A stretch of DNA of 34,653 nt from a virus: IMG/VR virus record IMGVR_UViG_3300044796_000284, positions 1 through 34,653 of that record. One strand, written 5' to 3'. This document shows, in pieces, positions 8,239 through 34,653 of this stretch. A program made the translations under genes and the position numbers. Position 1 is the stretch's first letter; every line of letters begins with the position of its first letter. The notes below the pieces were generated by a model, which saw only the letters and a list, made by a program, of their open reading frames with translations, made no database searches and was not told where the DNA came from.

Positions 8239-10145
8239 CGTCGACCGCCACCATCTACGACGAGGTCACGCGCCTCGGCCCCCCGCCCCCTGTCCACCTG
8301 ACGCCGCGGGGCATCCCGATCGGGCGCGGTCGTGTCTATCTGACGGCGGAACAGCTCTCGCGGATCGATCCGTTCCATTTTGACGGGTTTGCCGGCGGCG
8401 GTGGAGCATCGGAGGGCTATTACCTGGCCACGGGGCGCCACGCGGACGTGGCATGCAACCATGACCGCGAGGCTCTGGCCATGCACCGGGCGAACCACCC
8501 ATTCACCGAGCATTTCGAACAGGATATCCGGCGGATGCAGTGGCGGGCCGCCGCCGGCGGCCGGCTGGTGACGAGCGCGCACTTCTCCCCCGACTGTAAG
8601 GATTTCTCGAAGGCGAAGGGTGGTAAGCCGAAGAGCAAGCGGATACGCGGCCTGGCGTGGACCATCATTCACATGGTCAACGAGCTTGGCGCGCAGGCGC
8701 CGCTGCTGATCACGATGGAGAACGTGGAGGAGTTCAAGGAGTGGTGTCCGCTCCTGCCCGACGGCACGCGCAACAAGCGGCTGCTGGGGCTGTTTTTCCG
8801 GTGCTTCGTGGGTGCGCTGCATCGCCGGGGCTACGCGGTGGAGTGGCGTGAGCTGCGGGCCTGCGAGGCCTCGAGGGCGCCGACGATCCGCAAACGGCTC
8901 TACCTGATCGCGCGGCGGGACAGCCAGCCGATCACCTGGCCGGAGCATCTGTTTGGTGAAGGCAAACCCAACCGGCAGGGCATCGCGGCCGATATTCTCG
9001 ATTTCACGTTGCCGGGTCCGTCGATCTTCATGACGCGGCGCCAGGCCCGGGCCTACACGCGGCGCACGGGCATCAAGATCCAGCGGCCGCTGAAACGAGC
9101 CTCCCTGCAGCGTCTGGCCAAAGGGGTCGGCCGGTATGCGGTCCACACCAATACGCCCTTCCTGGTGGCCCTGACGCACCAAGGAAACGATGGCGTCGAG
9201 TCGATCGAGGAAGCGGTCAAGACTGTCACCGGGGCTAATCGAGGAGAGAAAGGACTCGCGAAGGTTTCACTCGCTGCGCCCTTTTTGACGGAGCATGCCA
9301 ACGCCAAGCATGAGCGGAATTTCCGGCTCGACCAAGGGCTGCGGACCCAATGCGCCCAGGTCAAAGGCGGTCACTTCGCTCTGGTCGTGCCTGTGCTCGC
9401 CGGCGTGGGCGGCCGCGCGGCGCAATCCCGGCCGCGCCCAGGTGGCGATCCACTGGCCAGCGTCACGGCCAAGGCGGACGTGGTGGTCGCGGCCGTGCAC
9501 CTGGTGAGGCAATTCGGGACCGGGATCGGGAGCGCTGCCGACAAGCCGACCGGCACGGTGATGTCTGATGGTGGCGGCAAGACTCTGCTTTCGTCCGTCT
9601 TCCTCGCCCAGAACAACACCGGCGTCGTGGGACACCGGGCGAGCAAGCCGCTTTCGACCATCATGGGCCGGGGCACGAATCAATCGGTCGTCGCGGTCGG
9701 CCTGTCGAAATATTACGGCAATGAGAAGGATGGCCATCATGTTGAGGCCGGTCTCGGGACCGTGACGGTGAAGGAACGCTTTGGTCTCTTCGAAGCGCAG
9801 CTCGAGATCCCGATCCTGACGGATGAGCTGGCCAAGCAGGCGCGCCGGGTGGCGAAGTTTCTGCGCTGCCATGGTATCAAGGTGGATGGCGAATTCGCGA
9901 TGTGCGGCGAGTTTGTGATCGTGGATATCGGCATGCGGATGCTGACCGCCCGCGAACTCTACCGTGCGCAAGGCTTCGGTGAGGATTACATCATCGACTT
10001 TGGCTATCTCAAAGACGGCACCCGGATCACGCTGACCAAGACAGCCCAGGTGAAGATGTGCGGTAACAGCGTGTGCCCGCCGATGGCGGAGGCACTCTTC
10101 CGGCTCAACCTGCCCGCGCACCATCTGATGAAGGAGGCTGCTTGA
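8235..10145 (+). CDS. DNA (cytosine-5) methyltransferase
   Basis: The 636-residue product transfers a methyl group from AdoMet to C5 of cytosine. Motif I is HFDGFAGGGGASEG (48-61), the catalytic motif IV is FSPDCKDFS with Cys121 (most relatives have PPC, here PDC), motif VI is ENVEEF (162-167), motif VIII is TIRKRLYLIA (217-226), and motif X is CGNSVCPP near 610. Between VIII and IX lies a long target-recognition region (about 230-560) made of imperfect units of about 40 residues, each with a hydrophobic start, a glycine-rich middle and a P/L-x-T-V/I-x element. The ATG at 8235 overlaps the previous stop and is chosen over upstream in-frame codons inside that gene. A likely role is protecting phage DNA from host restriction. 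Confidence 0.93.
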   Translation: MTSTATIYDEVTRLGPPPPVHLTPRGIPIGRGRVYLTAEQLSRIDPFHFDGFAGGGGASEGYYLATGRHADVACNHDREALAMHRANHPFTEHFEQDIRRMQWRAAAGGRLVTSAHFSPDCKDFSKAKGGKPKSKRIRGLAWTIIHMVNELGAQAPLLITMENVEEFKEWCPLLPDGTRNKRLLGLFFRCFVGALHRRGYAVEWRELRACEASRAPTIRKRLYLIARRDSQPITWPEHLFGEGKPNRQGIAADILDFTLPGPSIFMTRRQARAYTRRTGIKIQRPLKRASLQRLAKGVGRYAVHTNTPFLVALTHQGNDGVESIEEAVKTVTGANRGEKGLAKVSLAAPFLTEHANAKHERNFRLDQGLRTQCAQVKGGHFALVVPVLAGVGGRAAQSRPRPGGDPLASVTAKADVVVAAVHLVRQFGTGIGSAADKPTGTVMSDGGGKTLLSSVFLAQNNTGVVGHRASKPLSTIMGRGTNQSVVAVGLSKYYGNEKDGHHVEAGLGTVTVKERFGLFEAQLEIPILTDELAKQARRVAKFLRCHGIKVDGEFAMCGEFVIVDIGMRMLTARELYRAQGFGEDYIIDFGYLKDGTRITLTKTAQVKMCGNSVCPPMAEALFRLNLPAHHLMKEAA

Positions 10146-15197: not shown

Positions 15198-17151
15198 GGA
15201 ACAAATCGACGCGAAGTTTGACGTCGAGGAGGTCACTGAAGTCGACCGCTACTCGGAGAACACGATCTATCTGCCCGACGGCGAAAAGACGGGCTTCATC
15301 GACCTGAACGAAACGCCGTGGGCACGCGAGCCGATCAACTCGCTCGTTGATCCTGAGGTTGTCGTAGAGGCTGGGGTCTACGGCACACAAATGGCCAAGA
15401 CAACGCAGGCCTCATGCGTTGCTCTCTCCGCGATCGGACGGCTCCGACAGCAGTTTATTTGGATGTGGCCGAAGGAGGCGGCCGGCCGCAAATTCTCCAA
15501 GTCGCGTTTTCAGCGCATCATCAACGCCTCGCCAGACCTCCGCGCGCTCAAGCCTGGCAACTCCGACCTGTTCACGAACCTCGAGCTGCACTTCAGCAAC
15601 GGCGGCATCGGCTTCTTTGTGGGATCGCACTCGGCCGTCGACCAAAAGTCTTCCTCTGTGCCGCTCGTGATCGTCGATGAAATCGAGGACATCGCTGCGG
15701 CGCTGGAAAAAGAGACGGACCCGATCACGTCCATCAACGAGCGCTCGAAAACTTTCACCGATCGGAAGCTCTTCCTTTTTGGCTCGTGCATGCTCGAGAT
15801 CGGGCCGGCCTGGCAGCAATACCTGCTCGGCGATCAGCGGCATTACTTCGTGCCGTGCCCCGACTGTGGCACCCGGCAGACGCTTGAATTCCGCGGGCCG
15901 GTCTGGCTCTTCAACCGGAAGACCGGCGAGCTGGAGCAGCGCGGCCGCGCCGATGACTTCCGGTTGTGGTGGGATCCGGCCGCCCGGATCGGCGAGCACG
16001 AGTGGGACTACGATGCCGTGCGCTCGTCGGCCTGCTACGTGTGCCCGGAGTGCTTGGCGAAGATCCGCGACAACAGCAAGCGGGCCATGCTGGGCGCCGC
16101 GTTCTGGCACCCCACCGCCAAGGCCAAGGTCTACGGCCACCGCTCCCGCCGAATCAATTCGCTTTACCCGCTATGGGCCTCGACCTCCTTTCCGAACTTC
16201 GCGATCGAGTTTCTCAACTCCCGCGTGTCCTCGAAGAAACTCCAAAACTTCCGGAATAATTGGGAGGCGAAGCCATGGAGCACGGGCCTTGATCTCGCCG
16301 ACAAGACCGCCGTGCAGAAGCGGCTCGCCTACCTCGTCACCGAACATGTGCAGGGCGTTATGCCGGGCGCCCGGTCGCTGCTCTTGGTCGACGTCCAGCG
16401 GCACTGCCTGATCTGGGCGTTATTCAGTTTTGGCGATGCCGGCGGCGCACACCTGGCCGACTGCGGCATCACGCGCGACTTCGATTCACTCCGCGAGATC
16501 GATGACAAGTTGAAGACCGACTACGTGGCACTCGACGCCCGTTACCGTTCACAGGAGGTTTACGAGGCCGTCCATCAACGTCGCGATCGATGGCTCGCCC
16601 TCCGCGGTGAGAAGACGGGTGCGCCCCTCTCAGTGAATTTCAACTTTGACCCGTTTACGGGCGACAAGGCAGGGCGGCAGGGTCTGTTCATCATCACCCT
16701 CGTTCACCTCAACACCTACACGTGGGGCGAGGAATTTCTCAACCGTCTATACCCGGCCAAGCAGGAAGCATCGGCTTTGCCGGGCGCCACACCGGGCGCA
16801 GCATCCGAGTCGCAGGGTGACAGTGAGGCGCCGCGGATCCGCGACTTCACCGTTTTCGCGACCTTTCCGAAGCTCGTTGATTTTGTGGCACAGCTTTTTT
16901 CGGAATACCTGATCGACTACATCGACGCGAAGAACCGGCCTCAGCGGAAGTGGAAGGAGTCGCCGAATAATCACCTCTTCGATTTATGCAAATACGCCTA
17001 CGCGATCGGCTCCTTCCTCGGCCTCACCCGTATCGCGGCCGATGCCCGTAAGGCCATGGCCGCCGCCGCAGCCGCCGCGGCGAGCAAACAACCCGAGCTC
17101 CCCCTGGCTCCATCAACCGGGGGCACGCCATTGTTCCCGCCGCAAACATGA
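15175..17151 (+). CDS. Terminase large subunit, lambda GpA type
   Basis: The 658-residue packaging motor has an N-terminal ATPase (about 40-210) with a deviant Walker A (GVYGTQMAKTTQ, 68-79) and Walker B LVIVDEIED (164-172). A zinc-ribbon insertion follows, with CPDC (228-231) and CPEC (290-293), and a C-terminal nuclease (about 395-620) whose first metal-binding aspartate is in LLLVDVQRH (D406), followed by VALDARYRSQEVYEAV. This order is that of the GpA family, which cuts and packages DNA at cos sites. Near the end is an alanine-rich tail (about 630-645). ATG 15175 is preferred to upstream starts that lie deeper in the small terminase gene. The stop overlaps the next start. Confidence 0.93.
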   Translation: MEALAQLEEQIDAKFDVEEVTEVDRYSENTIYLPDGEKTGFIDLNETPWAREPINSLVDPEVVVEAGVYGTQMAKTTQASCVALSAIGRLRQQFIWMWPKEAAGRKFSKSRFQRIINASPDLRALKPGNSDLFTNLELHFSNGGIGFFVGSHSAVDQKSSSVPLVIVDEIEDIAAALEKETDPITSINERSKTFTDRKLFLFGSCMLEIGPAWQQYLLGDQRHYFVPCPDCGTRQTLEFRGPVWLFNRKTGELEQRGRADDFRLWWDPAARIGEHEWDYDAVRSSACYVCPECLAKIRDNSKRAMLGAAFWHPTAKAKVYGHRSRRINSLYPLWASTSFPNFAIEFLNSRVSSKKLQNFRNNWEAKPWSTGLDLADKTAVQKRLAYLVTEHVQGVMPGARSLLLVDVQRHCLIWALFSFGDAGGAHLADCGITRDFDSLREIDDKLKTDYVALDARYRSQEVYEAVHQRRDRWLALRGEKTGAPLSVNFNFDPFTGDKAGRQGLFIITLVHLNTYTWGEEFLNRLYPAKQEASALPGATPGAASESQGDSEAPRIRDFTVFATFPKLVDFVAQLFSEYLIDYIDAKNRPQRKWKESPNNHLFDLCKYAYAIGSFLGLTRIAADARKAMAAAAAAAASKQPELPLAPSTGGTPLFPPQT

Positions 17152-17903
17152 AGGCGTATTACTCAGATGCCTCCGTCATGCTATATCACGGCGATTGCCG
17201 GGAAATCGTGCCCCAGCTCGCCGGCATGGGCCGGCGTTTTGCGGCGGCGATCGCAGATCCGCCCTACGGCGAGACTTCGCTGGAGTGGGATACCTGGCCT
17301 GCCGGCTGGCCGCGCGTGGTCGCACAGGTCACCGATCAGCTTTGGTGCTTCGGTTCGCTGCGCATGTTCATGAAGCACGCGGCCGATCTGTCGGATTGGA
17401 AGCTTGCGCAGGATGTCGTGTGGGAAAAGCACAACGGCAGTTCGCTGCACAACGATCGCTTCCGCAAGGTGCACGAGCTCGCGGCGCATTTCTATCGCGG
17501 TGAATGGGCTAAAATCGCTCCTACCCCCCCCATTGTCCATGTGACGGAGGATCGGAATCGCCTCGGCAAGGTGCATCGGAGCAACCGGCCCCAACACTTC
17601 GGCGGGGTCGAGAGCGGTGCAGGCTACGAATATGACGGGACGCGGCTGCAGCGCTCTGTCATCTATGCGCGCTCATGCCATCACGGCGCCGATCACCCGA
17701 CTCAGAAGCCTGAGGCAATCCTGCGGCCTCTGCTTGAATATTCGACGAAACTAGGTGACTCCGTGCTGGATCCCACCTGTGGAAGTGGGAGCCTTTGTGT
17801 TGTCGCCAAACATCTAGGCCGAACTGCTGTCGGGATCGAAGGCGATGAGCGCGAAATCGAAAAGGCGGCGCGCCGATGCTGCCAGGAGCTCGCCTTCGCT
17901 TGA
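17148..17903 (+). CDS. DNA adenine-N6 or cytosine-N4 methyltransferase, beta class
   Basis: The 251-residue enzyme has catalytic motif IV DPPY (37-40) near the N-terminus and the AdoMet-binding motif I DPTCGSGS (208-215) near the C-terminus, the beta-class order. HPTQKP (about 186-191) is the usual motif X just before motif I, and VGIEGDE fits motif II. DPPY most often goes with adenine-N6 methylation. It starts inside the terminase stop (ATGA) and so is part of the late packaging block, well apart from the C5 enzyme at 8235. It may mark DNA just before packaging, which is inference. Confidence 0.92.
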   Translation: MKAYYSDASVMLYHGDCREIVPQLAGMGRRFAAAIADPPYGETSLEWDTWPAGWPRVVAQVTDQLWCFGSLRMFMKHAADLSDWKLAQDVVWEKHNGSSLHNDRFRKVHELAAHFYRGEWAKIAPTPPIVHVTEDRNRLGKVHRSNRPQHFGGVESGAGYEYDGTRLQRSVIYARSCHHGADHPTQKPEAILRPLLEYSTKLGDSVLDPTCGSGSLCVVAKHLGRTAVGIEGDEREIEKAARRCCQELAFA

Positions 17904-21587: not shown

Positions 21588-22940
21588 ATGAAATCCTTCC
21601 TCAAGCTCTCCCGCGCTATGACCGTGTTGCTCTTCGTGGCGCTGGCCGCGACGCTTTTTGTCCGGTTCGCGCCGGCGGTTTATGCGCAGGCTGGTGCCGT
21701 CGGCATCGTCCTCTCGATCTTCGCCCTCGATCTGGCCCTCGCGCCGCTGGCCCCGCGCCGTCCGGGCTTCCTGTTTGCCAACGGTGGATTGACGACCCTC
21801 ATTCCCATCGTCACGCAGGCCCTCGACATCGTCTCGCGTGAGCAGGTGGGTTTCATCCCGTCCGTCAATCGCGACGCCAATGCGGACCGCCTGGCCAAGA
21901 ATCAGACGCTCTACTCCTGGCAGGCTCCGGCCGCCACGCTGAGCGATGTCACCCCGGGCGCGGCCACGCCCTCCGCCGGTGACAAGACGCTCGGAAACAA
22001 GAGCATCTCGATCACCAACTACAAGATGTCGGATTTCTACTTCACCGGCGAGGAAGAGAAGATGCTTCAGGCCGCCAACAACAGCTATGGCGGCGTTATC
22101 ACGGACATGGTCGAGCAGGCCATTCGCGCCATCGTCAACCAGATGGAGACCGACCTGTGGACCGCCGGCTACGTCGGCGCTTCCCGTGCTTACGGCGTGG
22201 CCGGCACCACCCCCTTCGCCACGAACACGGGCGAGTCGGCCCAGATGAAAAAGCTCCTCGACGACAACGGGGCACCGCTCGGCACCCGGGCGCTCATCAT
22301 CGACACCACCGCTGGCGCCCTCCTGCGCACGCTTTCCCAACTGACCAAGGTCAACGAGGCCGGCACGGACATGACGCTGCGCGATGGCCAGCTGCTCAAC
22401 CTGAACGGCTTCATGATCAAGGAGAGCAACGCCGTCGGTATCCCGGCCATCGGCACGTCGAATAATTCGGGCACCACCGACACCGCGGGCTACGCGAAAG
22501 GCGCCACCGTCATCACGCTGGCCGCCGCTGGCACCGGCACCATCATCGCGGGCGACATCATCACGATTGCCGGCGATACCCTCAACAAGTATGTCGTCGC
22601 CTCCGGCATCGCCAGCCTGGCCGCCGGTGGCACCATCACCCTGGCCGCGCCCGGCCTGCGTGCGGCCATCCCGACCTCGGCCAAGACGGTGACCGTTGTC
22701 GCCCTGTCCACTCGCAATCTCGCGTTCTCGCGCAACGCCATGCTGCTCGCCACGCGCCTCTGCGCTGTGCCGACCGGTGGCGACATCGCGAGCGATCGCA
22801 GCATCATCACCGATGCGCGGTCGGGCATCTCCATCGAGCTCGCCGAATACAAGCAGTATCGGCAGGTCCGCTACGAGATCAGCGCCGCGTGGGGCGTCTC
22901 GGTCAACAAGCCCGAGCATCTCACCGTCCTCCTCGGCTGA
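21588..22940 (+). CDS. Major capsid protein, P22-coat-like, with signal-peptide-like N-terminus
   Basis: From about residue 66 the 450-residue protein follows the P22-type coat pattern of the HK97 fold: TTLIPIVTQALDIVSREQVG and NRDANADRL at the start, an inserted glycine/threonine-rich beta domain (about 295-370, with GTIIAGDIITIAGDTLNKYV), then NLAFSRNAMLLATRL and GISIELAEYKQYRQ. The first 60 residues are odd. MKSFLKLSRA, a hydrophobic stretch (12-28) and AVYA|Q look like a Sec signal peptide, and a second hydrophobic segment follows (35-54). A TTG start at 21789 (residue 68) would give a normal coat protein. The upstream leader is CT-rich. A terminator follows. Confidence 0.85.
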   Translation: MKSFLKLSRAMTVLLFVALAATLFVRFAPAVYAQAGAVGIVLSIFALDLALAPLAPRRPGFLFANGGLTTLIPIVTQALDIVSREQVGFIPSVNRDANADRLAKNQTLYSWQAPAATLSDVTPGAATPSAGDKTLGNKSISITNYKMSDFYFTGEEEKMLQAANNSYGGVITDMVEQAIRAIVNQMETDLWTAGYVGASRAYGVAGTTPFATNTGESAQMKKLLDDNGAPLGTRALIIDTTAGALLRTLSQLTKVNEAGTDMTLRDGQLLNLNGFMIKESNAVGIPAIGTSNNSGTTDTAGYAKGATVITLAAAGTGTIIAGDIITIAGDTLNKYVVASGIASLAAGGTITLAAPGLRAAIPTSAKTVTVVALSTRNLAFSRNAMLLATRLCAVPTGGDIASDRSIITDARSGISIELAEYKQYRQVRYEISAAWGVSVNKPEHLTVLLG

Positions 22941-22965: not shown

Positions 22966-22999
22966 CGCCCGCTCCGGCCCCGCGCCAGAGCGGGCGTTT
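22966..22999 (+). terminator. Hairpin terminator after the capsid gene
   Basis: A 9-bp perfect stem (CGCCCGCTC 22966-22974, GAGCGGGCG 22988-22996) with a 13-base GC-rich loop is followed by only three T. Its place after a highly expressed capsid gene is typical. The T tract is short, so termination may be partial. Confidence 0.65.
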
Positions 23000-23000
23000 G

Positions 23001-23068
23001 CCTTTGTTTGCGAGGCATCTCGCAGAACAAAGGACAAACACCGGGCCAGCAGCAGCGGGCCACGGTGT
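23001..23068 (+). ncRNA. Structured RNA element, copy D
   Basis: Hairpin P1 pairs CCTTTGTT (23001-23008) with AACAAAGG (23026-23033) and TGCGAG (23009-23014) with CTCGCA (23019-23024), with loop GCAT and bulged G23025. After ACAA, P2 pairs ACACC (23038-23042) with GGTGT (23064-23068), with internal loop GG / CAC and a short GCC/GGC inner stem with an enlarged AGCAGCAGCG loop. This is the most divergent of four copies. A second hairpin follows at 23071-23101. Confidence 0.6.
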
Positions 23069-23070
23069 CC

Positions 23071-23101
23071 CCCCAACGGTGCCGAGCGCGGCACAACGGG
23101 G
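23071..23101 (+). other. Companion hairpin after RNA element D
   Basis: CCCC (23071-23074) pairs with GGGG (23098-23101), and GTGCC (23079-23083) with GGCAC (23090-23094), loop GAGCGC. The two stems are separated by AACG on one side and AAC on the other, an internal loop like the AAC strand of the main element. It ends six bases before the CTCGTCTCCTCGAC tract. Confidence 0.45.
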
Positions 23102-23106
23102 TGCCC

Positions 23107-23120
23107 CTCGTCTCCTCGAC
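23107..23120 (+). repeat. CTCGTCTCCTCGAC tract before the 23147 gene
   Basis: This exact 14-base sequence also occurs at 90-103, 30410-30423 and 31295-31308 (and in the terminal copy at 34600-34613). Each copy lies 12-38 bases upstream of a start codon, within a CT-rich leader. It is a shared leader element of unknown role; ribosomal protein S1 binding or a regulatory site are both possible. Confidence 0.6.
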
Positions 23121-23146
23121 TTCCTCGCCCCCTCGACTCCAGCACC

Positions 23147-23515
23147 ATGATCCCCCTCACCTCCATCCGCGCCGCCCATCGGCACAAGACGGTCGGCTAC
23201 ATCGCCGCCGAGCCCTCCCCGGCCGTCTTCCGTTCGGCCACTCTCTACGTGCGCAGCTCCGAGATCGCCAAGTCCCGCGAGATGCGCCAGGCGGGTTTCA
23301 CCCCGGGTGCCACGCACTCCTGTCAGATCGCGCTGCCCTTCGGCGCGGATGCCCCCCAGCCGGCCAAGGAGCAGATTGCCGTCCTCGATCTCGCTGACCA
23401 GTGGCTCAATTACGACATCGTCGGCGTCACTCCCCTGCAGGGCTCCTCCTGCTATCGCCTCGACCTCAAGGTCCGCAACGGAGCTCCGGCGGCGCCCCGC
23501 CCGCCCCGCGCATGA
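23147..23515 (+). CDS. Head-tail completion protein candidate (122 aa)
   Basis: A small, mostly beta-type protein with segments AVFRSATLYVRSSEIAKSRE, TPGATHSCQIALPFG and CYRLDLKVRNGA, and a disordered proline-rich end. Its place directly after the capsid gene and before the 277-residue gene suggests a head-completion or neck protein. No family was recognised, so the role is inferred from position. The leader contains the CTCGTCTCCTCGAC tract and no Shine-Dalgarno site. Confidence 0.62.
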   Translation: MIPLTSIRAAHRHKTVGYIAAEPSPAVFRSATLYVRSSEIAKSREMRQAGFTPGATHSCQIALPFGADAPQPAKEQIAVLDLADQWLNYDIVGVTPLQGSSCYRLDLKVRNGAPAAPRPPRA

Positions 23516-24345
23516 TCACCACCCGGGTCGACTACGGTGGCGTTACCGCCATGGCGCGGGATCTCGCCAACTGGTCCGCGGCGCCCTATCGGAAGGTCCT
23601 CCTGTCGGAGACCGCCAGCATCATCAAGATCTGCGCTCTCCGCGCCAAGCCGGCCAGCCTGGCCAAGATCAAGACGGCGATCGAGCTCACCGCTGATCGC
23701 AACTTTGTCGGCGCCGATCAGAGCGTCGTCTCGATCAACCTCCGGGCGGCCAAGGGCCGCGTCTGGTTCGTCCCCGGGTCGATGACCTCCTCGCCGGAGC
23801 GGGCCACTCGTGGCGCCGGGCCCGTGCAGCCGGGCAAGCTCCGCCCCATCGTCTCCCATGGCAACTTCCTGCTCGTCTACGAAGCCGGCGGTGCCAAGGG
23901 CCATCACCTGCCGGATGCGGCCTGGCAGGCCTACCTGCTCGCGGTCAATGATCGCGACGGCTACATCAAGGCCCGGCTCAAGGAGCTGCGCTCCCGCCGC
24001 GGCCTCCAGTTGCTCTCCTGGCTCCAGATCGCTGATGGTCTCGGCGTGCCGCTCTCGACGGTCGCGCCCCAGGGCAGTCTGCAGGAGTCAATTGCCCGCG
24101 CCGCCCGCGGCCCCGGTGGGCGCAGCTACGCCAACGGCCGGGTGGCGATCGACGATGAGGGGAAGCAACTGCTCATCACCGTCACCAACGGCTCGCCGCT
24201 GGCCATCAAGCGTCAGGGACAGGATGAACTCGACCGCGCCATCAACCAGCGCGTCCGCGGTTTCGAGATCGCCGTCCGCAAAGGCGTCATCAACGACCTC
24301 CACCTCCGCGCCGCCCGCTGGAAAGGGATTTTCATTACGCCCTGA
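23512..24345 (+). CDS. Neck or minor tail protein candidate (277 aa)
   Basis: Starts with an ATGA overlap. The N-terminal half is helical (TAMARDLANWSAAPYRKVLL, SETASIIKICALRAKP), the middle contains a glycine- and histidine-rich segment (SHGNFLLVYEAGGAKGHHLP), and the C-terminal half alternates strands and helices. No named family fits. Its position after the head genes is typical of tail-completion proteins. The stop codon is part of the first stem of RNA element A. Confidence 0.6.
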   Translation: MITTRVDYGGVTAMARDLANWSAAPYRKVLLSETASIIKICALRAKPASLAKIKTAIELTADRNFVGADQSVVSINLRAAKGRVWFVPGSMTSSPERATRGAGPVQPGKLRPIVSHGNFLLVYEAGGAKGHHLPDAAWQAYLLAVNDRDGYIKARLKELRSRRGLQLLSWLQIADGLGVPLSTVAPQGSLQESIARAARGPGGRSYANGRVAIDDEGKQLLITVTNGSPLAIKRQGQDELDRAINQRVRGFEIAVRKGVINDLHLRAARWKGIFITP

Positions 24346-24410
24346 TTTCGCGACGGATGACGCGCGAGAATCAGGGACGTATCCCGGCCGGCGAGCACGC
24401 CGGAACGGGA
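24342..24410 (+). ncRNA. Structured RNA element, copy A
   Basis: P1 pairs CTGATT (24342-24347) with AATCAG (24369-24374) and TCGCG (24348-24352) with CGCGA (24363-24367), bulged G24368. P2 pairs TCCC (24382-24385) with GGGA (24407-24410). Inside it, the internal loop GG / AAC separates the stem CCGGCG (24388-24393) / CGCCGG (24398-24403), loop AGCA. The upstream stop codon (24343-24345) lies in P1. The same architecture with different stem sequences is found three more times. Confidence 0.68.
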
Positions 24411-24418
24411 CAGCCCAC

Positions 24419-24444
24419 CTGACGCCCCCGCCTATTATGTCAGG
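24419..24444 (+). promoter_or_regulatory. TTGACG-type box before ssb
   Basis: CTGACG (24419-24424), then CCCCCGCCTATTATGTC. CCTGAC (24418-24423) and GTCAGG (24439-24444) form a 6-bp inverted repeat around it. It follows RNA element A by eight bases and precedes ATG 24481 by about 60 bases. TATTAT in its second half resembles a -10 element but is too close to the TGACG half for the usual promoter spacing. Confidence 0.45.
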
Positions 24445-24480
24445 CCGTTTCCCGCTACGTAACCTCAACTCGCTTTCACC

Positions 24481-24897
24481 ATGGCCAACCTCAACAAAAT
24501 AATGCTCATTGGTAACCTGACCCGCGACCCCGAGTTGCGCGTCACGCCCAAGGGCACCGCAATCTGCACTTTCCCCCTCGCCCTGAATCACAAGTGGCGC
24601 GATCCGTCGGGCGCCGAGAAAGAAGAGGTCGTTTACGTCGAGCTTGAGGCATGGGGCAAGGCTGGCGAAACGATCGCCAAATACACCACCAAGGGCCGGC
24701 CGCTCTTCGTTGAGGGCCGTCTGCGTCTCGACCAGTGGGAGGACAAGGCCACCAAGGAAAAGCGCTCCCGCACCAAAGTCGTCGTGGAGCACTTCCAGTT
24801 TCTGGGCTCAAAGGCAGACAGCCCTGACCGCTCGATGCCCATGCCGCCTAAGCTCCCGGCCGCCGGAGACGCCATGGATGAAGACGTCCCGTTCTAG
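24481..24897 (+). CDS. ssb: Single-stranded DNA-binding protein
   Basis: The 138-residue product has the OB-fold of bacterial SSB: MANLNKIMLIGNLTRDPELR at the start, CTFPLALNHKWRD, VVYVELEAWGKAGE, KGRPLFVEGRLRLDQWED and KVVVEHFQFLG. It ends with the acidic tip DEDVPF, which in this family recruits replication partners. It is slightly shorter than E. coli SSB because the linker is short. Its location is odd: it lies among tail genes and about 10 kb from the other replication genes, with its own leader preceded by RNA element A and a TTGACG-type box. Confidence 0.95.
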   Translation: MANLNKIMLIGNLTRDPELRVTPKGTAICTFPLALNHKWRDPSGAEKEEVVYVELEAWGKAGETIAKYTTKGRPLFVEGRLRLDQWEDKATKEKRSRTKVVVEHFQFLGSKADSPDRSMPMPPKLPAAGDAMDEDVPF

Positions 24898-24909
24898 GGC
24901 TGGAATTCG

Positions 24910-24935
24910 AAAATCGTAAATCTAAAATCGTAAAT
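24910..24935 (+). repeat. Tandem AAAATCGTAAAT repeat
   Basis: The 12-base sequence AAAATCGTAAAT occurs twice (24910-24921 and 24924-24935) separated by CT, in an AT-rich patch between ssb and the next gene. Such an AT-rich direct repeat stands out in this high-G+C genome. It ends seven bases before the GTG start at 24943 and may be a promoter element or a protein site. Confidence 0.6.
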
Positions 24936-24942
24936 TCCTCCT

Positions 24943-25479
24943 GTGCCCGCCGCGAACATCACCCAAATCCTTAACTGGACCGAGGCCATCAACCCGGCCC
25001 TCGCAGCCCGGCTCAACACCTGCGGCGTCCCGGCCTACGTGGCCCGCGCCACCGACGATCTGCCCGACAACTACGCGCTCCCGATCTTCACGCGCGGGGC
25101 GGCTTCGGGTCACATGCGCCCTCTCCCGGCCGTGGTCGGCGGTTACGAGCACGATATCTTTGATGGCTGCATCATCACTGTAGAACTCTTCGCGCCCCGC
25201 ATTCAGGCCGATGTCACCGCCGCTTACCTGGCTGCCGTCTACGACCGCCTCGGCGATCTCGCCACCCGGGCCCGCTACGCCTTCCGCTGGAATGCCCGGG
25301 CCCAGCTCGCCGCCTTGCTCAGCTACCATCACGTCGACACCATGATCCCGCTGGCCGACGTCGTCGGCTACGACGAGGATCGCAACATCGACCGCCACAC
25401 CCTCGCCTGGCGCTGCCTTTGCGGCGTGCTGCCCGATGCGTGGCCCACCACCGCCGAAGGCTACGACCTGCCGGCGTAA
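24943..25479 (+). CDS. Tail completion or terminator protein candidate (178 aa)
   Basis: GTG start after CCTCCT, with no Shine-Dalgarno site. The product looks alpha/beta: helix ITQILNWTEAINPALAARLN, strand ALPIFTRGAA, strand GCIITVELFAP, then helix AAYLAAVYDRLGDLATRARY. The pattern of an N-terminal helix and paired strands with another helix is like tail terminator proteins, and the place just before the tail tube gene agrees, but no signature is certain. Confidence 0.6.
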   Translation: MPAANITQILNWTEAINPALAARLNTCGVPAYVARATDDLPDNYALPIFTRGAASGHMRPLPAVVGGYEHDIFDGCIITVELFAPRIQADVTAAYLAAVYDRLGDLATRARYAFRWNARAQLAALLSYHHVDTMIPLADVVGYDEDRNIDRHTLAWRCLCGVLPDAWPTTAEGYDLPA

Positions 25480-25517
25480 GTTACTTTTCGTCAGTCAACG
25501 TAAACCACCAAAAATCA

Positions 25518-25760
25518 ATGCACTACAGAAACGGAAGAGAAGCAAAGAACGGCGACAAGATCGTCAAACTCAGCGGCGGCAAAATTGAAGCCTTCGGCGT
25601 CTTACACGACGCTACGCCAGGCAATGACTACTGCAACGGCAATATCGCCGTCGTGCAGTCGGCCAACGATTACGCCTGCCTGTGCGATTGCATCCATGTC
25701 GATGACCTCGCGGCGATCCTCGCCGAAAAGGGTCTCGATAAACGACCGCCGGGCAAGTGA
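25518..25760 (+). CDS. Small conserved-looking protein of unknown function (80 aa)
   Basis: The product starts MHYRNGREAKNGDKIVKLSG, a compact beta segment that reads like a small SH3-like barrel (YRNGREAKNGDKIV, then strands GKIEAFGVLHD and GNIAVVQSANDYACL), followed by a short helix (VDDLAAILAEKG). Such small barrels often occur as cargo genes in phage tail regions. It is followed by its own strong terminator, so it can be expressed as a separate unit. Its composition is less G+C-rich than the flanking tail genes. Confidence 0.68.
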   Translation: MHYRNGREAKNGDKIVKLSGGKIEAFGVLHDATPGNDYCNGNIAVVQSANDYACLCDCIHVDDLAAILAEKGLDKRPPGK

Positions 25761-25796
25761 TCCCACGCGGGGAGCGAAAGCATCCTCTTCAACTGG

Positions 25797-25819
25797 TTGA
25801 CGGGCGCGCCTTGTTTAGG
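25797..25819 (+). promoter_or_regulatory. TTGACG-type box overlapping a terminator
   Basis: TTGACG (25797-25802), then GGCGCGCCTTGTTTAGG. Here the box overlaps the left arm of the terminator at 25803-25833. This copy shows that the box can be part of a hairpin, so at least some copies may act at the RNA level. Confidence 0.35.
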
Positions 25820-25833
25820 GGCGCGCCTTTTTT
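25803..25833 (+). terminator. Strong intrinsic terminator before the tail tube gene
   Basis: GGCGCGCC (25803-25810) and GGCGCGCC (25820-25827) form an 8-bp stem (the sequence is its own complement) with a 9-base loop TTGTTTAGG, followed by six T (25828-25833). This is a textbook intrinsic terminator, 40 bases before ATG 25873. Confidence 0.88.
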
Positions 25834-25872
25834 CTGCCCGCCTCGTCACCCTCAACTCTCCTCTTCTCTCCC

Positions 25873-26547
25873 ATGGGCGCCATTCAAAACCTCGCTGACG
25901 GCCTTCTCCCGACCGGCTCCTTCGACATCACCATGCTCGAGACGGGCACGAGCTTCATCGCCGATAGTTTCAGCTTCGACGAGAACACCACGAAGATCCA
26001 GTCGAAGTCTGCCCGCGGCCGGGTCAACCGCCAGAAGGTCATCGCGACCGATATCACCGGCTCGGCCGATTTTCAGCTCGCCGACTCCACCACCCTGGCT
26101 CCCCGGCCGCGCGAGACCTTCGCCGTCGACGCCGATCTCGATGGCAACGTCGAGCCCTACATGATCGAGAAGCCCGGTCGCAAATTCACTGCGGATGGCG
26201 AATACAAGTGCTCCGTCTCCATCATGGGCATGGCCAACCCGCTGCTCTACGACAGCGTCACCCTGATCGCCCCGGTCGTGCCCTCCCTCACGCATGCGGT
26301 GGCCATGACGGCCACCAATGCCCTCGCCGCCTTCCTCCCGCGCGACGTCACGCTCGGCGCATCCCCTTGGAGCGCCTCCGGGCTCCCGGCCGGCGTCACC
26401 ATGGTCGCCGCCACGGGCGTCATCTCCGGCACGCCCACCACGGCCGGCAGCTACAACGTCACCATCAAGTGCACCGGCTCCATCACGGTCGACGGTGTCG
26501 TCGAAACCCGCATCGGCGCCCGCAAGCAGGTCTGGGTCGTCGCCTGA
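25873..26547 (+). CDS. Major tail tube protein candidate with C-terminal Ig-like domain
   Basis: The 224-residue product has an N-terminal tube-like part (about 1-140: DITMLETGTSFIADSFSFDE, then ADFQLADSTTLAPRPRETFA and KFTADGEYKCSVSIMGM). The C-terminal domain (about 150-224) contains ASGLPAGVTMVAATGVISGT and PTTAGSYNVTIKCTGS, the signature of putative Ig-like domains that often decorate phage tail tubes and bind cell surfaces. The place after a terminator and before the chaperone-position and tape-measure genes fits a tail tube gene. The leader is CT-rich. Confidence 0.75.
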   Translation: MGAIQNLADGLLPTGSFDITMLETGTSFIADSFSFDENTTKIQSKSARGRVNRQKVIATDITGSADFQLADSTTLAPRPRETFAVDADLDGNVEPYMIEKPGRKFTADGEYKCSVSIMGMANPLLYDSVTLIAPVVPSLTHAVAMTATNALAAFLPRDVTLGASPWSASGLPAGVTMVAATGVISGTPTTAGSYNVTIKCTGSITVDGVVETRIGARKQVWVVA

Positions 26548-26558
26548 TTTTAGATAGC

Positions 26559-26640
26559 CACTGGCGCCTGTCCGCTCCGGACAGGTTGGCAGCCCCCGCC
26601 TTGCTTATGCCGCCAGTGCATGGGCAAGGCTTCATTTTTA
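26559..26640 (+). ncRNA. Leader RNA with nested and crossing stems, possible pseudoknot or attenuator
   Basis: CACTGGCG (26559-26566) pairs perfectly with CGCCAGTG (26611-26618). Inside lies CCTGTCCG (26567-26574) / CGGACAGG (26578-26585) with loop CTC. GCCTTGC (26598-26604), also inside, is complementary to GCAAGGC (26624-26630) outside, which is followed by TTCATTTTTA. The last pair would form a terminator-like hairpin that crosses the outer stem. The two are thus either alternatives or a pseudoknot. Confidence 0.55.
26586..26612 (+). promoter_or_regulatory. TTGACG-type box in the 26645 leader
   Basis: TTGGCA (26586-26591), then GCCCCCGCCTTGCTTATGC. It has one base different in the first half and lies 59 bases before ATG 26645. 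It overlaps the arm GCCTTGC of the structured leader. Confidence 0.4.
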
Positions 26641-26644
26641 TATC

Positions 26645-27301
26645 ATGACGCCGACAAACCATCCGACTCTTAGCACCGCCGAGCAATACGCGCGCGATGG
26701 GGCTTTTCTCGGTCTGGTCCCGCCGCCGTCCCTCGGTCTTCCCGATCGCCTCCTATCCAGCGCTGGGCTGCCTTTCGGCCCGGCGCTGGGCAAGCTGACC
26801 CCTTGGCGCCACCATCTGCTGCTCGGCTACGATTCGCCCTACATCACCGGGGCCGACTGCCGCCGCCGCCACCTCTGGCAGGCCCTCTATCTCTGCAGCC
26901 CGGCCTTCCGCCCGGGCTCCCGCGTGGCCTTCCTCGCGTTTCAGGCGCGCACCTTCTGGTTTGTTGCCCGCCACTTTCAGGCCGCCAGCGCCGCCCTCTG
27001 CGCCTGGTTGTCTGCCCCGTTCTCCTTCATGCCCGCCATGCCGGTCGAGAAAGCCGATGCTCAGGGCCGCCCCGAGGCCAGCCGACATTGGCTGATCTCC
27101 CTCATGCAGCTCGGGCGCATGGCCGGTTTCCAGCCCATGGAGGTCATTCACGTCCCCTACGCCATCCTCTGGCCCAGCCTCGACTCCGTCATGGCCGGCA
27201 AGGTCAAGGATCGCCCGAAGTTCAACCGCGCCCTCGACAAGGCCCGCGGCGAATACCTGCGGAATAAAAACCGGCTCCGTGCCCAAAGCGCCCGCAATTA
27301 A
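26645..27301 (+). CDS. Unknown tail protein in the chaperone position (218 aa)
   Basis: The gene lies between tail tube and tape measure, where tail assembly chaperones are found, but the product is not typical. It has a proline-rich N-terminus, a middle with CRRRHLWQALYLCSPAFRPG and aromatic-rich segments (FQARTFWFVARHFQA), and a basic C-terminus (KFNRALDKARGEYLRNKNRL). No classical slippery heptamer was recognised, and no second frame extends it. The next gene starts directly after its stop (TAAATG). Confidence 0.6.
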   Translation: MTPTNHPTLSTAEQYARDGAFLGLVPPPSLGLPDRLLSSAGLPFGPALGKLTPWRHHLLLGYDSPYITGADCRRRHLWQALYLCSPAFRPGSRVAFLAFQARTFWFVARHFQAASAALCAWLSAPFSFMPAMPVEKADAQGRPEASRHWLISLMQLGRMAGFQPMEVIHVPYAILWPSLDSVMAGKVKDRPKFNRALDKARGEYLRNKNRLRAQSARN

Positions 27302-28927
27302 ATGAGCTTCGGACCTGCAATCACCGCTACCATCGGCGCCGACGTCGCCCCGCTTGCCGCGGCTGGGCCGCAGGTCGAAGACGCTGCCGGCAAGATTGGC
27401 GCCAAGCTCACCGACAAGCTGATCGGCGCCCGTGATGTCGCAAATGTGGTCGCCACGGCGCTGGGACTCAATCTGGAGAAAATTGCCGAAAGTGTCTCGG
27501 CCTACGTCTTCGGCGTCACTGAAGAGGCCAAGAAGGATTTCGAGGCGTTGGCAGACACTGCCGAAAAGACGACGGCCATAGTGCAAGAGCAGCTGGCTAA
27601 GAGGCGCGACCAGACTCAGGAGCACCAACACAATCTCCAGCAGGAAGCGTCTCTTGAGCGGGATATGAACGGTCTGAAGCAGCAGCAGATCGATAAGGAG
27701 CAGGAAATTGCTAAATTGAAGGCGCAGGCGCTCGCTTATGCACTGGCCGGCCCTTCTGCCGCCGGCGCCACCTTGGCCGTAGATTCGGAGATCAACCGGG
27801 CAACAAACGAATTGCTGGGTATCCAACAGAAGATTGGTGCCAATCAGAAGGATCAACAGGCACTCAAGGGCACATTCGATGCTGAGGATCAGGATCGAAT
27901 GAAAAAGACTTATGCGTGGGAGCAGGGGAATTGGGAACTGGGGCTACGTAATCTCACGTTAAAACAACAGGCTGTTGCTTGGCTCGACCGTGAGAATGAG
28001 CGACTAAAGGAATGGGTCGCCTTCAAGGGTGAGGGCGTGGAGAAGGATATTCTTCGTCACCAAGCGGATATTGCCCACCTGAAATATACTGAGCTCACAG
28101 GCCAACTGGAGAAGGAAGCCCGGACCTCACAATTCGAGCAGCTTGAGCTCGAGGCCAAGCTGATGTCGGGGACTATCTCGCCGAACGAACGTATCCGGCT
28201 CGATATCATTCGCCTGCAGAATGAGGCCTTGGTTGTGCATACGAAGCTCCAGCAGCTGCTGTCCAAGCCGATTGCGGAATGGAATCAGGCGGACAAGGAT
28301 CAATTCAGTGCGCTGGAGAAGCAGAATGGGAAAATCGCCGAGCAAATCGAGGCGAAGAAAAAGTTGCTGGACGAGACGAAGAAGGTAGCTGCCGAAGAGA
28401 ACAAGATTCCCCCTGCGATTGAAGCGGCCTTCGCCGCGACCAAGGAATTCTCCGCGGGCATGGCTGAGATCTTCAAGCAGATGGAGAATATCTCGGCCGA
28501 GTGGGAGCAGTTCAAGGGCTCGATCACCACCTTTGGCCGGAGCGACAAGGATCTCTCGGACCGCGAACTGCAGCGCAAGGTCTCCAACATCAACCGCGAT
28601 ATTTTCCAGCGCCGCACGGCCGATGCCACCGCCCCGGGCAGCGCCTACTACAATCCCTCGGCCCCTGGCACCGATCTCCTGCTCGAGGCCCAGATGGGTA
28701 ACCTCCAGCAGACTCTCGCCGAGCTCAAGCTCCGCGAGACGGTCCGCCGTGATGCCTCCGCCTTCGGCCAGGATGCCGCCTTCCGCATGCACGATGGCCT
28801 CAACGAGCAGCGCTTCGCCGAGATCCTCCGCACCGCCACGGATTCGCAGACCGTGGTTGATGAGTTGAAGGGCTTGCGGACCGACCTCCGGACTGGTCGG
28901 ACACGCATCGGGACCGTTTCTCTATGA
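27302..28927 (+). CDS. Tape measure protein candidate (541 aa)
   Basis: The product begins with a small hydrophobic helical region (about 1-75), followed by long charged helices with coiled-coil character (about 80-470: EASLERDMNGLKQQQIDKEQ, KLLDETKKVAAEENKI) and an end rich in R, D and E. Helical content, position after the tube gene and lack of other candidates support a tape measure that sets tail length. It is short for this class; at the usual ratio of about 0.15 nm per residue this would mean a tail near 80 nm. Codon use between about 27560 and 28400 is visibly less G+C-rich than the flanks, suggesting exchange. The stop overlaps the next start. Confidence 0.7.
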   Translation: MSFGPAITATIGADVAPLAAAGPQVEDAAGKIGAKLTDKLIGARDVANVVATALGLNLEKIAESVSAYVFGVTEEAKKDFEALADTAEKTTAIVQEQLAKRRDQTQEHQHNLQQEASLERDMNGLKQQQIDKEQEIAKLKAQALAYALAGPSAAGATLAVDSEINRATNELLGIQQKIGANQKDQQALKGTFDAEDQDRMKKTYAWEQGNWELGLRNLTLKQQAVAWLDRENERLKEWVAFKGEGVEKDILRHQADIAHLKYTELTGQLEKEARTSQFEQLELEAKLMSGTISPNERIRLDIIRLQNEALVVHTKLQQLLSKPIAEWNQADKDQFSALEKQNGKIAEQIEAKKKLLDETKKVAAEENKIPPAIEAAFAATKEFSAGMAEIFKQMENISAEWEQFKGSITTFGRSDKDLSDRELQRKVSNINRDIFQRRTADATAPGSAYYNPSAPGTDLLLEAQMGNLQQTLAELKLRETVRRDASAFGQDAAFRMHDGLNEQRFAEILRTATDSQTVVDELKGLRTDLRTGRTRIGTVSL

Positions 28928-30195
28928 GCTCCGCGATTCCATTGTCCGACGACGGCGACTACTCCCAGCTCCTCGAGACCGAGGGCCGCACCACGGAGTT
29001 CCCGTTCCTGAATGCCCAGGTAAAGGATATCGCGACCAAGCTTTACCGCCTTCCGCTCGAGGTCAACCGGCTCGACTACGCGCCGGCCGCTGCCCTCAGC
29101 ACGCATCCGGACGATGCCGCCGCCTACCTCACCGATGAAACTCCGCCGCCGGCGATCGGCGGCGATGTCGTCCGCACGGTCCGCACCTACGCCAACATTC
29201 CCGGCACCCAGATCAGCTATGGCCCGTCGCTCCTGATCGCCTTCCCGGCCGTCCCCGAGAGCACGAATACCGCGCACACGACTTTCGCCATTGATTCCGT
29301 GTCCGGCTTCCCGACCACGCTGCAGACGGGTGCACTCTGGCTCAATCGTGCCAATGGCAATTATTATGCGTGGACATCCACCAATCGATTCTACGGCGCG
29401 GCGGTCCGCGTGTTGCCATCGATGACCGCGGCGACCGGCGGCACGTTCACGATCACCTACAAATCGAGCACGACCGCCCCTCTCGCGTGGAACGCCACGA
29501 TGGCCACGATCACCACCGCGCTCAATGCCTTGGCGGACATCGTTGCGGACGGCGTCGTCTTCAACGCCGGAATCGCTTACGGAAACAATTATCTGGGCAA
29601 CACCGCCAATGGCTCCCTCTGGCTCCGCGTGGATTCGGGCACACTGGCGCAGCCGCTGGTCTTCACCAGCAGCCTCACGCCGACGGCGGCGGCTGTCGTT
29701 TTCCCTTACTACGGATCACTCTCCGCCGGGGCCGATATCTATTTCTTCATCGCCATCTGGGCCACGGTCACCGCCCACGGCTACAATCCGGCCAATCTCC
29801 TCGCCGTCATCACGAATACCGGCATCAAGGAGCTGCCTTCCACCCGCTGGAGTGTAATCGACGTGAACACGATCGCTTGGGGTCCGACCACCAGCAACGC
29901 CGGAGACTACGTCAACGTCCAGCGCCTCGCTCCGTTCAACCGCAACTATCAGCCCGCCAGCCGCCTGATCCGGACCAAGAACACCACTACGTTTTATTTG
30001 CCCGGCGTCACCGGCGGCATCACGACTCCCGGCGACATCGCGGTCCCCGCCGACCTCCAGAACGCGCAGGATATGCTCAACGCGATCCTGACCACCACCG
30101 GCTTTCAAGTCTACCAAGCCGAAGGCCCGAGCACCTGGCAAGGACCCATCGTCCAGCTCAAGACCATCGCGATCAATCTGGCAGACCTGCCTTAA
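28924..30195 (+). CDS. Tail tip or baseplate protein of unknown type (423 aa)
   Basis: Coupled to the tape measure gene by ATGA. It begins with a mixed domain and then has a large beta-rich, serine/threonine- and alanine-rich part (TFTITYKSSTTAPLAWNATM, GSLWLRVDSGTLAQPLVFTS, FNRNYQPASRLIRTKNTTTF) that looks like stacked beta-sandwich domains. Position right after the tape measure is typical of distal tail or hub proteins. No named family was recognised. The TAA stop lies in the first stem of RNA element B. Confidence 0.65.
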   Translation: MSSAIPLSDDGDYSQLLETEGRTTEFPFLNAQVKDIATKLYRLPLEVNRLDYAPAAALSTHPDDAAAYLTDETPPPAIGGDVVRTVRTYANIPGTQISYGPSLLIAFPAVPESTNTAHTTFAIDSVSGFPTTLQTGALWLNRANGNYYAWTSTNRFYGAAVRVLPSMTAATGGTFTITYKSSTTAPLAWNATMATITTALNALADIVADGVVFNAGIAYGNNYLGNTANGSLWLRVDSGTLAQPLVFTSSLTPTAAAVVFPYYGSLSAGADIYFFIAIWATVTAHGYNPANLLAVITNTGIKELPSTRWSVIDVNTIAWGPTTSNAGDYVNVQRLAPFNRNYQPASRLIRTKNTTTFYLPGVTGGITTPGDIAVPADLQNAQDMLNAILTTTGFQVYQAEGPSTWQGPIVQLKTIAINLADLP

Positions 30196-30263
30196 TTTGG
30201 CCACGGCATTGCCGGGCCAGAATTAAGGACAGGTGCCGGGCGGCGAGCACGCCGCAACGGCAC
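30191..30263 (+). ncRNA. Structured RNA element, copy B
   Basis: P1 pairs CTTAATT (30191-30197) with AATTAAG (30221-30227), TGGCC (30198-30202) with GGCCA (30215-30219) and CGGC (30204-30207) with GCCG (30211-30214), with bulges A30203 and G30220. P2 pairs GTGCC (30233-30237) with GGCAC (30259-30263). Internal loop GG / AAC separates it from GCGGCG (30240-30245) / CGCCGC (30250-30255), loop AGCA. This is the best-formed copy, with 16 pairs in P1 and 11 in P2. The stop codon of the preceding gene is in P1. Confidence 0.72.
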
Positions 30264-30287
30264 TGCCGTAGTTTTGCCACTCCGCCA

Positions 30288-30355
30288 GTTTTTGTCGACG
30301 GGTGACGCGCCAGAAAACGGGAAGACCCCTGGCCGGCCAGCAGGCCGGAACAGGG
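30288..30355 (+). ncRNA. Structured RNA element, copy C
   Basis: P1 pairs GTTTT (30288-30292) with AAAAC (30314-30318), then after bulged G30313 TGTCG (30293-30297) with CGCCA (30308-30312, one mismatch). P2 pairs CCCT (30327-30330) with AGGG (30352-30355), internal loop GG / AAC, inner stem CCGGCC (30333-30338) / GGCCGG (30343-30348), loop AGCA. It stands only 24 bases after copy B, so the two are in tandem. A further small CTGCC / GGCAG hairpin follows. Confidence 0.62.
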
Positions 30356-30409
30356 CCGCAACAGCACTGCCAGCAACAGGGGCAGCCTCGTCCCTCGACT
30401 TTCTCGTCC

Positions 30410-33509: not shown

Positions 33510-34582
33510 AGACATCCTCCCTCCTGTTGATTCTTGTTGTTTCGATCTGCCTCTCCGGCGGCTGCTCCACCGTTTCCTCCTGGTTCCACCGCGCACCCGC
33601 CCCGCTCGCCGCGCCCGTCGTCGCCCCGGCCGGCCCGGCTGCTGCCGCCGTGCCGCCCGCCGTCGCCTCGGCCGATACCGCCCACGCTGCCGCTCTCTCC
33701 CGCATCGCCGCCGGCGCCTCCGTCATCCACTCGCTCAACGGCGCGCAGCCGCCATCCGCCCTCACCTCCGGCGTTGAGGGTGAGGCTGCCGGCATCACCG
33801 CCCTCGCCGGCCAGCCCAGCCCCGCCGATGCCGCCGCCGCGGCCCAACGCGAACTGATCGTCAAGTCCGGCGACCTCGCCCGCATCTCCGCCCAATACGT
33901 CGCCCAGTCTGGCGAATTGTCCGCCCTCAATTCGCGGGTCGCCGCCGCGGAGCAAGCCCGCGATGCCGCCCTCGCCTCCGCCAAGTCCGAGCAGGAGGCC
34001 AGCCGCGCGAAGTATCAGGCCCAGTTCGACCAGCTCGCCGCTACCGCCAACGCCCGGGTGAAGGCTGCGCAGGACGAGGCGAACAACAAGGTGATGGCCA
34101 ATCAGGTCGCCTGGCTCAATCGCACCGCCGCCAGTTGCGCCGCCCTCGCCGTCGCCGCCATCGGCCTCGGCGCCATCTTCGGCGGCATCACCGCCCTGCG
34201 CACCGTGGGGCCCTTTGCCGCCCTCCTGGGTCTCGCCGCCCTCATGGCCTTCGGTCTGGCCCAGATCGTCGGCCAATGGTGGTTCAAATGGGCCGTCCTC
34301 TCCGCCTCCGGCATCGGCGTGGCCGGCTGCGCCTGGTGGGTCTGGCAGCACTACGAGCTCGGCACCCTCGCCGCCGACCTCGCCAAGAAATCCGCCGCCG
34401 CCCAAGGCGTGCTGCAGCAAGTCGTCCCCGTCCTCGACACCGCCTACGAAAGCGCCGACGCCACCGCGAAGACCTTCCTCGACGACAAGGTCTTCGCTCC
34501 CCTCTCCGCCGGCATGGACAAGGCCGGCGGAGACCTCAAAGCCGTCGTCCACACCGTCCGCGCCGACCTCGCCAAGGCGTGA
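33506..34582 (+). CDS. Lipoprotein with coiled coil and three membrane segments
   Basis: The 358-residue product starts with a lipoprotein-type signal (MKTSSLLLILVVSICLSGGC, modified cysteine at 20; the lipobox is imperfect). An alanine/proline-rich region follows (30-115), then a coiled coil (about 120-190: SGELSALNSRVAAAEQARDA), a block of three hydrophobic segments (about 208-275: ALAVAAIGLGAIFGGITALR, PFAALLGLAALMAFGLAQIV, then AVLSASGIGVAGCAWWVW) and a helical C-terminus. An envelope-spanning role in lysis or entry is plausible next to the holin-like gene. No close family was recognised. Confidence 0.72.
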   Translation: MKTSSLLLILVVSICLSGGCSTVSSWFHRAPAPLAAPVVAPAGPAAAAVPPAVASADTAHAAALSRIAAGASVIHSLNGAQPPSALTSGVEGEAAGITALAGQPSPADAAAAAQRELIVKSGDLARISAQYVAQSGELSALNSRVAAAEQARDAALASAKSEQEASRAKYQAQFDQLAATANARVKAAQDEANNKVMANQVAWLNRTAASCAALAVAAIGLGAIFGGITALRTVGPFAALLGLAALMAFGLAQIVGQWWFKWAVLSASGIGVAGCAWWVWQHYELGTLAADLAKKSAAAQGVLQQVVPVLDTAYESADATAKTFLDDKVFAPLSAGMDKAGGDLKAVVHTVRADLAKA

Positions 34583-34653
34583 TTGATCGCCCCTCGGCCC
34601 TCGTCTCCTCGACGTCTGAATCCCCATGACCGAAGAACGCCTCAAGAAAATCG
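34511..34653. repeat. Terminal direct repeat, right copy
   Basis: Second copy of bases 1-143 with two silent differences (A34637, G34646). See the left copy. The unique unit length is therefore about 34,510 bp. Confidence 0.93.
34627..34653 (+). CDS. 5' start of the holin-like gene (partial, continues at base 116)
   Basis: ATG 34626-34628 begins MTEERLKKI, identical in protein to the start of the complete gene at 116-337, and the window ends in the ninth codon. The two base differences from the left copy change no residue (GAA for GAG, AAG for AAA). Confidence 0.85.

Follow-up and report, generated by a model that had tools for sequence, protein, structure and literature searches.

Four repeats in a tailed-phage genome as probable insertions of a mobile two-hairpin palindromic element of Opitutaceae

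The viral record IMGVR_UViG_3300044796_000284 of IMG/VR, analyzed here over its full 34,653 nucleotides (the window), carries four copies of a compact unit made of two hairpins, P1 and P2. We found that these copies belong to a covarying family dispersed among genomes of Opitutaceae (Verrucomicrobiota; bacteria from soil and water) and able to enter new sites as an exact unit. The explanation that we favor, with moderate confidence, is that the four phage copies arose by insertion of a small palindromic mobile element, non-autonomous and native to Opitutaceae, where its occurrence is patchy; a host enzyme recognizing its hairpins on single-stranded DNA would move it.

The copies lie at the following window positions, their boundaries being set by the base-paired feet of the hairpins.

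Copy 1: 22997..23067, + strand; P1 22997-23038 (foot TTTG/CAAA, bulged A), P2 23039-23067 (CACC-GG-GCCAGC-AGCA-GCGGGC-CAC-GGTG)
Copy 2: 24336..24410, + strand; P1 24336-24381 (foot TACG/CGTA), P2 24382-24410
Copy 3: 30186..30262, + strand; P1 30186-30233 (foot CCTG/CAGG), P2 30234-30262
Copy 4: 30281..30355, + strand; P1 30281-30326 decayed, its foot unpaired, P2 30327-30355 intact

An initial annotation, made from the sequence of the window alone, had placed four copies of a two-hairpin RNA element at these sites, and all four are present with small shifts of their boundaries. Copy 1 starts 57 nt past the stop of the major capsid gene; as had been noted, P1 contains a stop codon in two copies, namely the TGA of the gene ending at 24345 (copy 2) and the TAA of the gene at 28924-30195 (copy 3). 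The P2 pattern GGNNNNNNAGCANNNNNNMAC matched the window at exactly the four copies, and four matches occurred in 0 of 100 shuffles. Similarly, a structural descriptor matched the window 3 times and none of 60 random windows, and a covariance model trained on copies 2-4 alone recovered copy 1 (46.5 bits, E 2e-8), the next-best match in the window reaching only 8.9 bits. Folding z scores relative to shuffles were -5.65, -5.6, -6.9 and -0.7 for copies 1 to 4, respectively. The four copies had been described as sharing a plan and not a sequence: the plan is indeed common to them, but so is part of the sequence, with 26 of 76 alignment columns invariant. A third hairpin 3' of copy 1 (window 23069-23100; CCCC..GTGCCG-AGCG-CGGCAC-AAC-GGGG) looks like a degenerate extra P2, and a GCAACRGCACTGCC stretch stands downstream of both copies 3 and 4 (window ~30254-30267 and ~30357-30370), as if a longer segment had been duplicated.

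In intact copies P2 follows P1 directly. P1 consists of a 4-bp foot, commonly TTTG/CAAA, followed by CC...GG, and one A is left unpaired where GG meets the 3' foot; P2 consists of a 4-bp foot, commonly CACC/GGTG, a GG/AAC internal loop, a 6-bp inner stem and an AGCA loop. The unit thereby runs as TTTG-CC..P1..GG-A-CAAA and then, gaplessly, CACC-GG..AGCA..AAC-GGTG, and its outermost paired bases are its ends. The bulged G before AA that the initial annotation reported in P1 is frequent; the foot had been overlooked, and its pairing with the bases that follow the bulged A (TTTG/CAAA, TACG/CGTA, CCTG/CAGG) is what brings P1 and P2 together. Units are 54-57, 64, 66, 71, 75 or 96 nt long, P1 occurring in several length classes. 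Of 134 usable host copies, 109 form all four P1 foot pairs, and the pairs covary: TTTG/CAAA in 83, TCTG/CAGA in 6, TCCG/CGGA in 4, TATG/CATA in 3 and TTGG/CCAA in 1.

This covariation extends through the stems. Among 99 model matches (97 distinct), 96.4% of stem cells were paired, compared with 69.7% after shuffling, and none of 500 shuffles scored as high; fitting the alignment to the model inflates the pairing of the matches somewhat, although not by so large a margin. Double-changed stem cells numbered 473 versus 129 in shuffles, and double changes were found at 23 of 26 stem pairs. Sliding the pairing partners as a control abolished the signal. Together, these results strongly support a structure-conserved, covarying two-hairpin family, in agreement with the paired stem changes seen at the outset in the four phage copies. 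The family also has no match in Rfam, in line with the initial annotation, which knew no named RNA of this form: strict and permissive searches with the curated Rfam covariance models returned nothing at the gathering threshold, the sole chance match lying elsewhere (E 4).

The covariance-model search for relatives that the initial annotation had proposed led to Opitutaceae genomes and to other viral records. A pattern scan over 85,000 species genomes picked up at least 120 stretches, mostly in Opitutaceae metagenome-assembled genomes (MAGs) that bear the labels Lacunisphaera, Opitutus, Oleiharenicola or Opitutia, and the 99 model matches fell across 83 loci. The 14 carrier genomes scored hold 3-53 copies each, as lower bounds, and one complete 4.15-Mb genome holds 44. 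The spread is patchy: the element was present in 12 of 150 sampled Opitutaceae genomes, and a Verrucomicrobiota sample, scanned at reduced sensitivity, gave 7 positive genomes of 388, all previously known Opitutaceae carriers. At least four other viral records contain the element in one to five copies each; a P1-only pattern scan of viral contigs gave 48 loci, none of which the covariance model scored as a copy. The idea of a phage-specific regulatory family was dropped after the copies turned up dispersed across Opitutaceae genomes. Three copies were also seen on a small contig titled and binned as a Devosia sp. MAG (L165), which is probably mis-binned Opitutaceae.

Identical copies of the element are present in different genomes, and the unit spreads between genomes and into phages. 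How it enters a site can be read from a near-identical empty/filled pair in genome G082 (3394705 and 3397050), whose members differ by an insertion of exactly 57 nt. These 57 nt make up a complete two-hairpin unit of their own, placed in a P2 loop, between GGGCGGGCAGC and AGCCCGC and so between AGC and AGC, with nothing duplicated or lost. Similarly, the heptamer arrays (CTCAACT)n and (CAGGTCT)n that flank some copies and are interrupted by them (such arrays are seen at L131, L195, L149, L203, L224 and L282) stay in phase across the insertions, and nested copies are found in the P1 loop, the P2 loop or the P1/P2 junction of other copies. These data show that the element inserts precisely as a unit, without target duplication. 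Near-identical composite copies are clustered at G082:C1:3391000-3443000 (L352, L354), where one element sits inside another at its P1/P2 junction; this cluster is a recent local amplification. An additional palindrome (TTCGACAAGCTC..GAGCCTGTCGAA) occupies the P2 loop of several copies (L145, L158, L180, L181, L187, L204).

About half of the copies lie inside open reading frames (ORFs) called by an in-house codon-bias gene caller. Several of these ORFs are conserved genes supported by Pfam, encoding QueA, an SNF2 helicase, a DUF3516 helicase, DNA topoisomerase IV/gyrase A, SufB/D, pyruvate dehydrogenase E2, IspG, RsmB/F, CtaG and an amidase. Comparison with element-free orthologues of SNF2, QueA and SufD places the inserts in loops that are variable and that take up unrelated palindromes as well; because of this variation, no exact empty site was obtained within genes for the 55-nt class. 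Several such unrelated palindromes, all in open frame, share these permissive loops, for example GTGGGAGCGAGC..GCTCGCTCCCAC (QueA: L285, L288, L289, L292, L293; SNF2: L307, L308, L309, L317). Sense copies within ORFs keep the frame open, as sampling by ORF, biased to open copies, partly guarantees, and each length class favors one frame. Stops are depleted on both strands: in-ORF copies have 2.81 (sense) and 2.78 (antisense) stop-free frames of 3, copies outside genes have 2.45 and 2.65, and shuffles ~1.85 (1.90 for in-ORF sense copies). Judging from these frames, the element is probably translated within flexible protein loops, as a peptide such as GQTPGGQQPATV in the QueA, SNF2 and SufD context.

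The copies also face predominantly in the direction of transcription: sense outnumbers antisense 55:8 within ORFs (p 1e-9) and 32:6 in gaps between co-directional genes (p 2e-5), p values that are optimistic given that copies are partly non-independent. In genome G082 the strand of the element switches along the chromosome (p 0.002), near a turn in GC skew. In genome G123, taking dnaA as the origin, strand relative to the replication fork divides 7:4.

How might such a unit move? The absence of target duplication, the hairpins at both ends, the conservation of structure over sequence and the insertion into hairpin loops suggest single-strand DNA handling of the Y1 HUH type. A host enzyme would recognize both hairpins on single-stranded DNA through stems of free sequence, the fixed GG/AAC internal loop, the AGCA loop and the bulged A; the strand would then be cut and pasted in trans, as Y1 HUH transposases of the IS200/IS605/RAYT type do (RAYT, REP-associated tyrosine transposase; REP, repetitive extragenic palindrome). 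Copies would persist where they are harmless: past a stop codon, between phage genes or, since most of their frames lack stops, within flexible loops of proteins. Y1 transposases are indeed present in 12 of the 14 carrier genomes.

Several observations weigh against this explanation. No copy was found within ~1.5 kb of 30 sampled Y1_Tnp/RAYT loci (~39 further Y1 loci lay outside the sample), and a descriptor search for an autonomous parent with separated P1 and P2, made with an imperfect descriptor on partial genomes, gave nothing clear. Target preference is weak, C standing at -2 in 54% of copies and at +1 in 67%, and the flanks of the copies contain neither a guide tetranucleotide nor a clear target motif. 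The 55-, 64- and 71-nt length classes are not multiples of three and yet stand in open frames. The sense bias is not accounted for by stop codons, as antisense copies are equally open, nor is it predicted by simple single-stranded DNA transposition. A bias linked to replication cannot be claimed, because the markers of the G082 origin disagree: GC skew turns near 1.7 Mb, and dnaA lies at 3.14 Mb.

The sense bias leaves an RNA-level role open, and we therefore weighed the reading on which the initial annotation had settled, in which paired change denotes a folded, selected RNA. Such a cis-acting element (for 3'-end processing, stabilization, termination or protein binding) would be selected for its fold in transcripts, and its copies kept for that function. 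The strong stem covariation, the orientation of copies in ORFs and co-directional gaps, and the overlap of two phage copies with stop codons are all consistent with it. Among mismatched stem pairs, G.T also exceeds A.C (62 versus 41), which is at best a weak sign of RNA-level selection; G.T makes up only ~2.5% of all pair cells, which is few for a selected RNA. Covariation itself cannot discriminate between DNA and RNA, since recognition of single-stranded DNA by hairpin-binding enzymes could give paired changes, and template switching during replication can yield compensatory-like ones (PMC8794818). The residence of about half of the copies inside protein-coding ORFs, the nested insertions, the lack of the element in 138 of 150 genomes of the family and the lack of any constant neighbor gene argue against it further. 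Thus the covarying family stands, selection as RNA in the phage is not secured for what is a dispersed, self-nesting host repeat found within genes, and we regard a cis-acting RNA element as unlikely.

Rather improbable, too, is a classical REP moved by its own RAYT (a REPtron) within Opitutaceae genomes and unusual only in shape. In its favor, the unit is a palindrome in high copy at intergenic and intragenic sites, Opitutus terrae is rich in GTAG REPs, many of them intragenic (PMC3733652), most carrier genomes have Y1 transposases, and some TnpA_REP classes have atypical REP structures (PMC6006769). But the unit is two abutting hairpins and not one, the 30 Y1 loci are free of surrounding copies, and in 109 intact copies, judged by flank and end composition, an unpaired GTAG/GTGG or CGTC tag is absent at either end, both ends being paired. 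A REP-type mobile element had been named at the outset as the finding that would speak against a selected RNA, and a mobile palindromic repeat is largely what emerged, lacking the tag and the transposase adjacency of REPs.

Poorer still are the prospects of an element selected or mobile at the RNA level, whose folded transcript would be recognized by an RNA-based mobility enzyme or by hopping ribosomes; such an element would be sense-only, unlike REPs or miniature inverted-repeat transposable elements (MITEs). An element hopped by the ribosome in the manner of byp, or otherwise removed from RNA, would explain the tolerance within genes and the sense bias, and has in its favor a compact fold with meeting ends and in-ORF length classes not divisible by three, but is very improbable given the stop-free in-ORF sense frames (from a sample biased to open copies), the one favored frame per length class, which skipping would not need, and the location of insertions in variable loops. 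Gene-3'-end position and the bulge had also suggested an integron attC site, which was set aside: no AAC..GTT core was apparent by eye, with no formal search made, and the copies are dispersed in both orientations.

The window itself is a tailed-phage genome, whose terminase, portal, capsid and single-strand-binding genes follow one another in order. It carries a 143-base near-exact direct repeat at its ends (1-143 and 34511-34653), and the genome is therefore probably complete and circularly permuted. The genes adjoining the copies are as follows.

21588..22940, + strand: major head protein gene (phrog_283, E 4e-81), upstream of copy 1, with homologues in two Opitutaceae genomes
24481..24897, + strand: single-strand DNA binding protein gene (phrog_44, E 2e-39), downstream of copy 2
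28924..30195, + strand: tail-region gene with its 3' end inside copy 3; weak match to phrog_10909 (major tail protein), E 7e-7

Annotated phages showed no DNA similarity to the region carrying the copies. Because one Opitutaceae genome encodes a full-length homologue of the phage capsid at 52% identity, Opitutaceae is the likely host family of the phage. The phage also encodes two DNA methyltransferases (window 8145-10145 and 17148-17903) and a ParB-like protein (window 5180-7645).

Palindromic elements inside genes are most familiar from Rickettsia and from the GTAG repeats, and the present findings add a structurally distinct, highly covarying class with two hairpins. With its exact ends and an empty/filled pair, this class offers a clean natural system in which to ask what moves tag-less palindromes, why these face transcription and whether proteins tolerate the insert. 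The findings also caution that strong stem covariation alone is no proof of a functional RNA.

An open-access literature search, which was not exhaustive, found no description of the two-hairpin element, and its place is best seen by comparison with known systems. Rickettsia palindromic elements (RPEs) are dispersed palindromes found in open frame within unrelated conserved genes and in gaps (PMC10969869, PMC3733652). Compared by description, the Opitutaceae unit resembles them in open-frame insertion inside unrelated protein genes, and differs in its phylum, its two abutting hairpins, its freely covarying stems, its use of several frames, its carriage by phages and its length of 54-96 nt (~150 in RPEs). 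The GTAG-tagged REPs in which O. terrae is rich, many of them intragenic and encoding amino acids (PMC3733652), share the host family, the palindromy, the high copy number and the frequent location within genes; each of them is a single hairpin of 20-40 bp that ends in an unpaired GTAG or GTGG, whereas the present unit is tagless, with flush paired ends. Against the definition of a REP as a short palindrome in many, mostly intergenic copies, the unit is many-copy but longer, double and about half in ORFs. Y1 transposition of single-stranded DNA involves hairpins at both ends and no target duplication (PMC6006769), features that the unit shares with the IS200/IS605 MITEs (PATEs, palindrome-associated transposable elements) and with RAYT/REP systems, although it has no guide or target motif and neither a parental IS nor Y1 adjacency was found for it. 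Finally, the coding palindromes of Nematomorpha, inverted repeats retained in mitochondrial coding sequence (PMC6649704), are perfect and long, in contrast to a dispersed bacterial two-hairpin family. On the best reading, the Opitutaceae unit, which phages carry, represents a new class of non-autonomous palindromic elements built of two hairpins.

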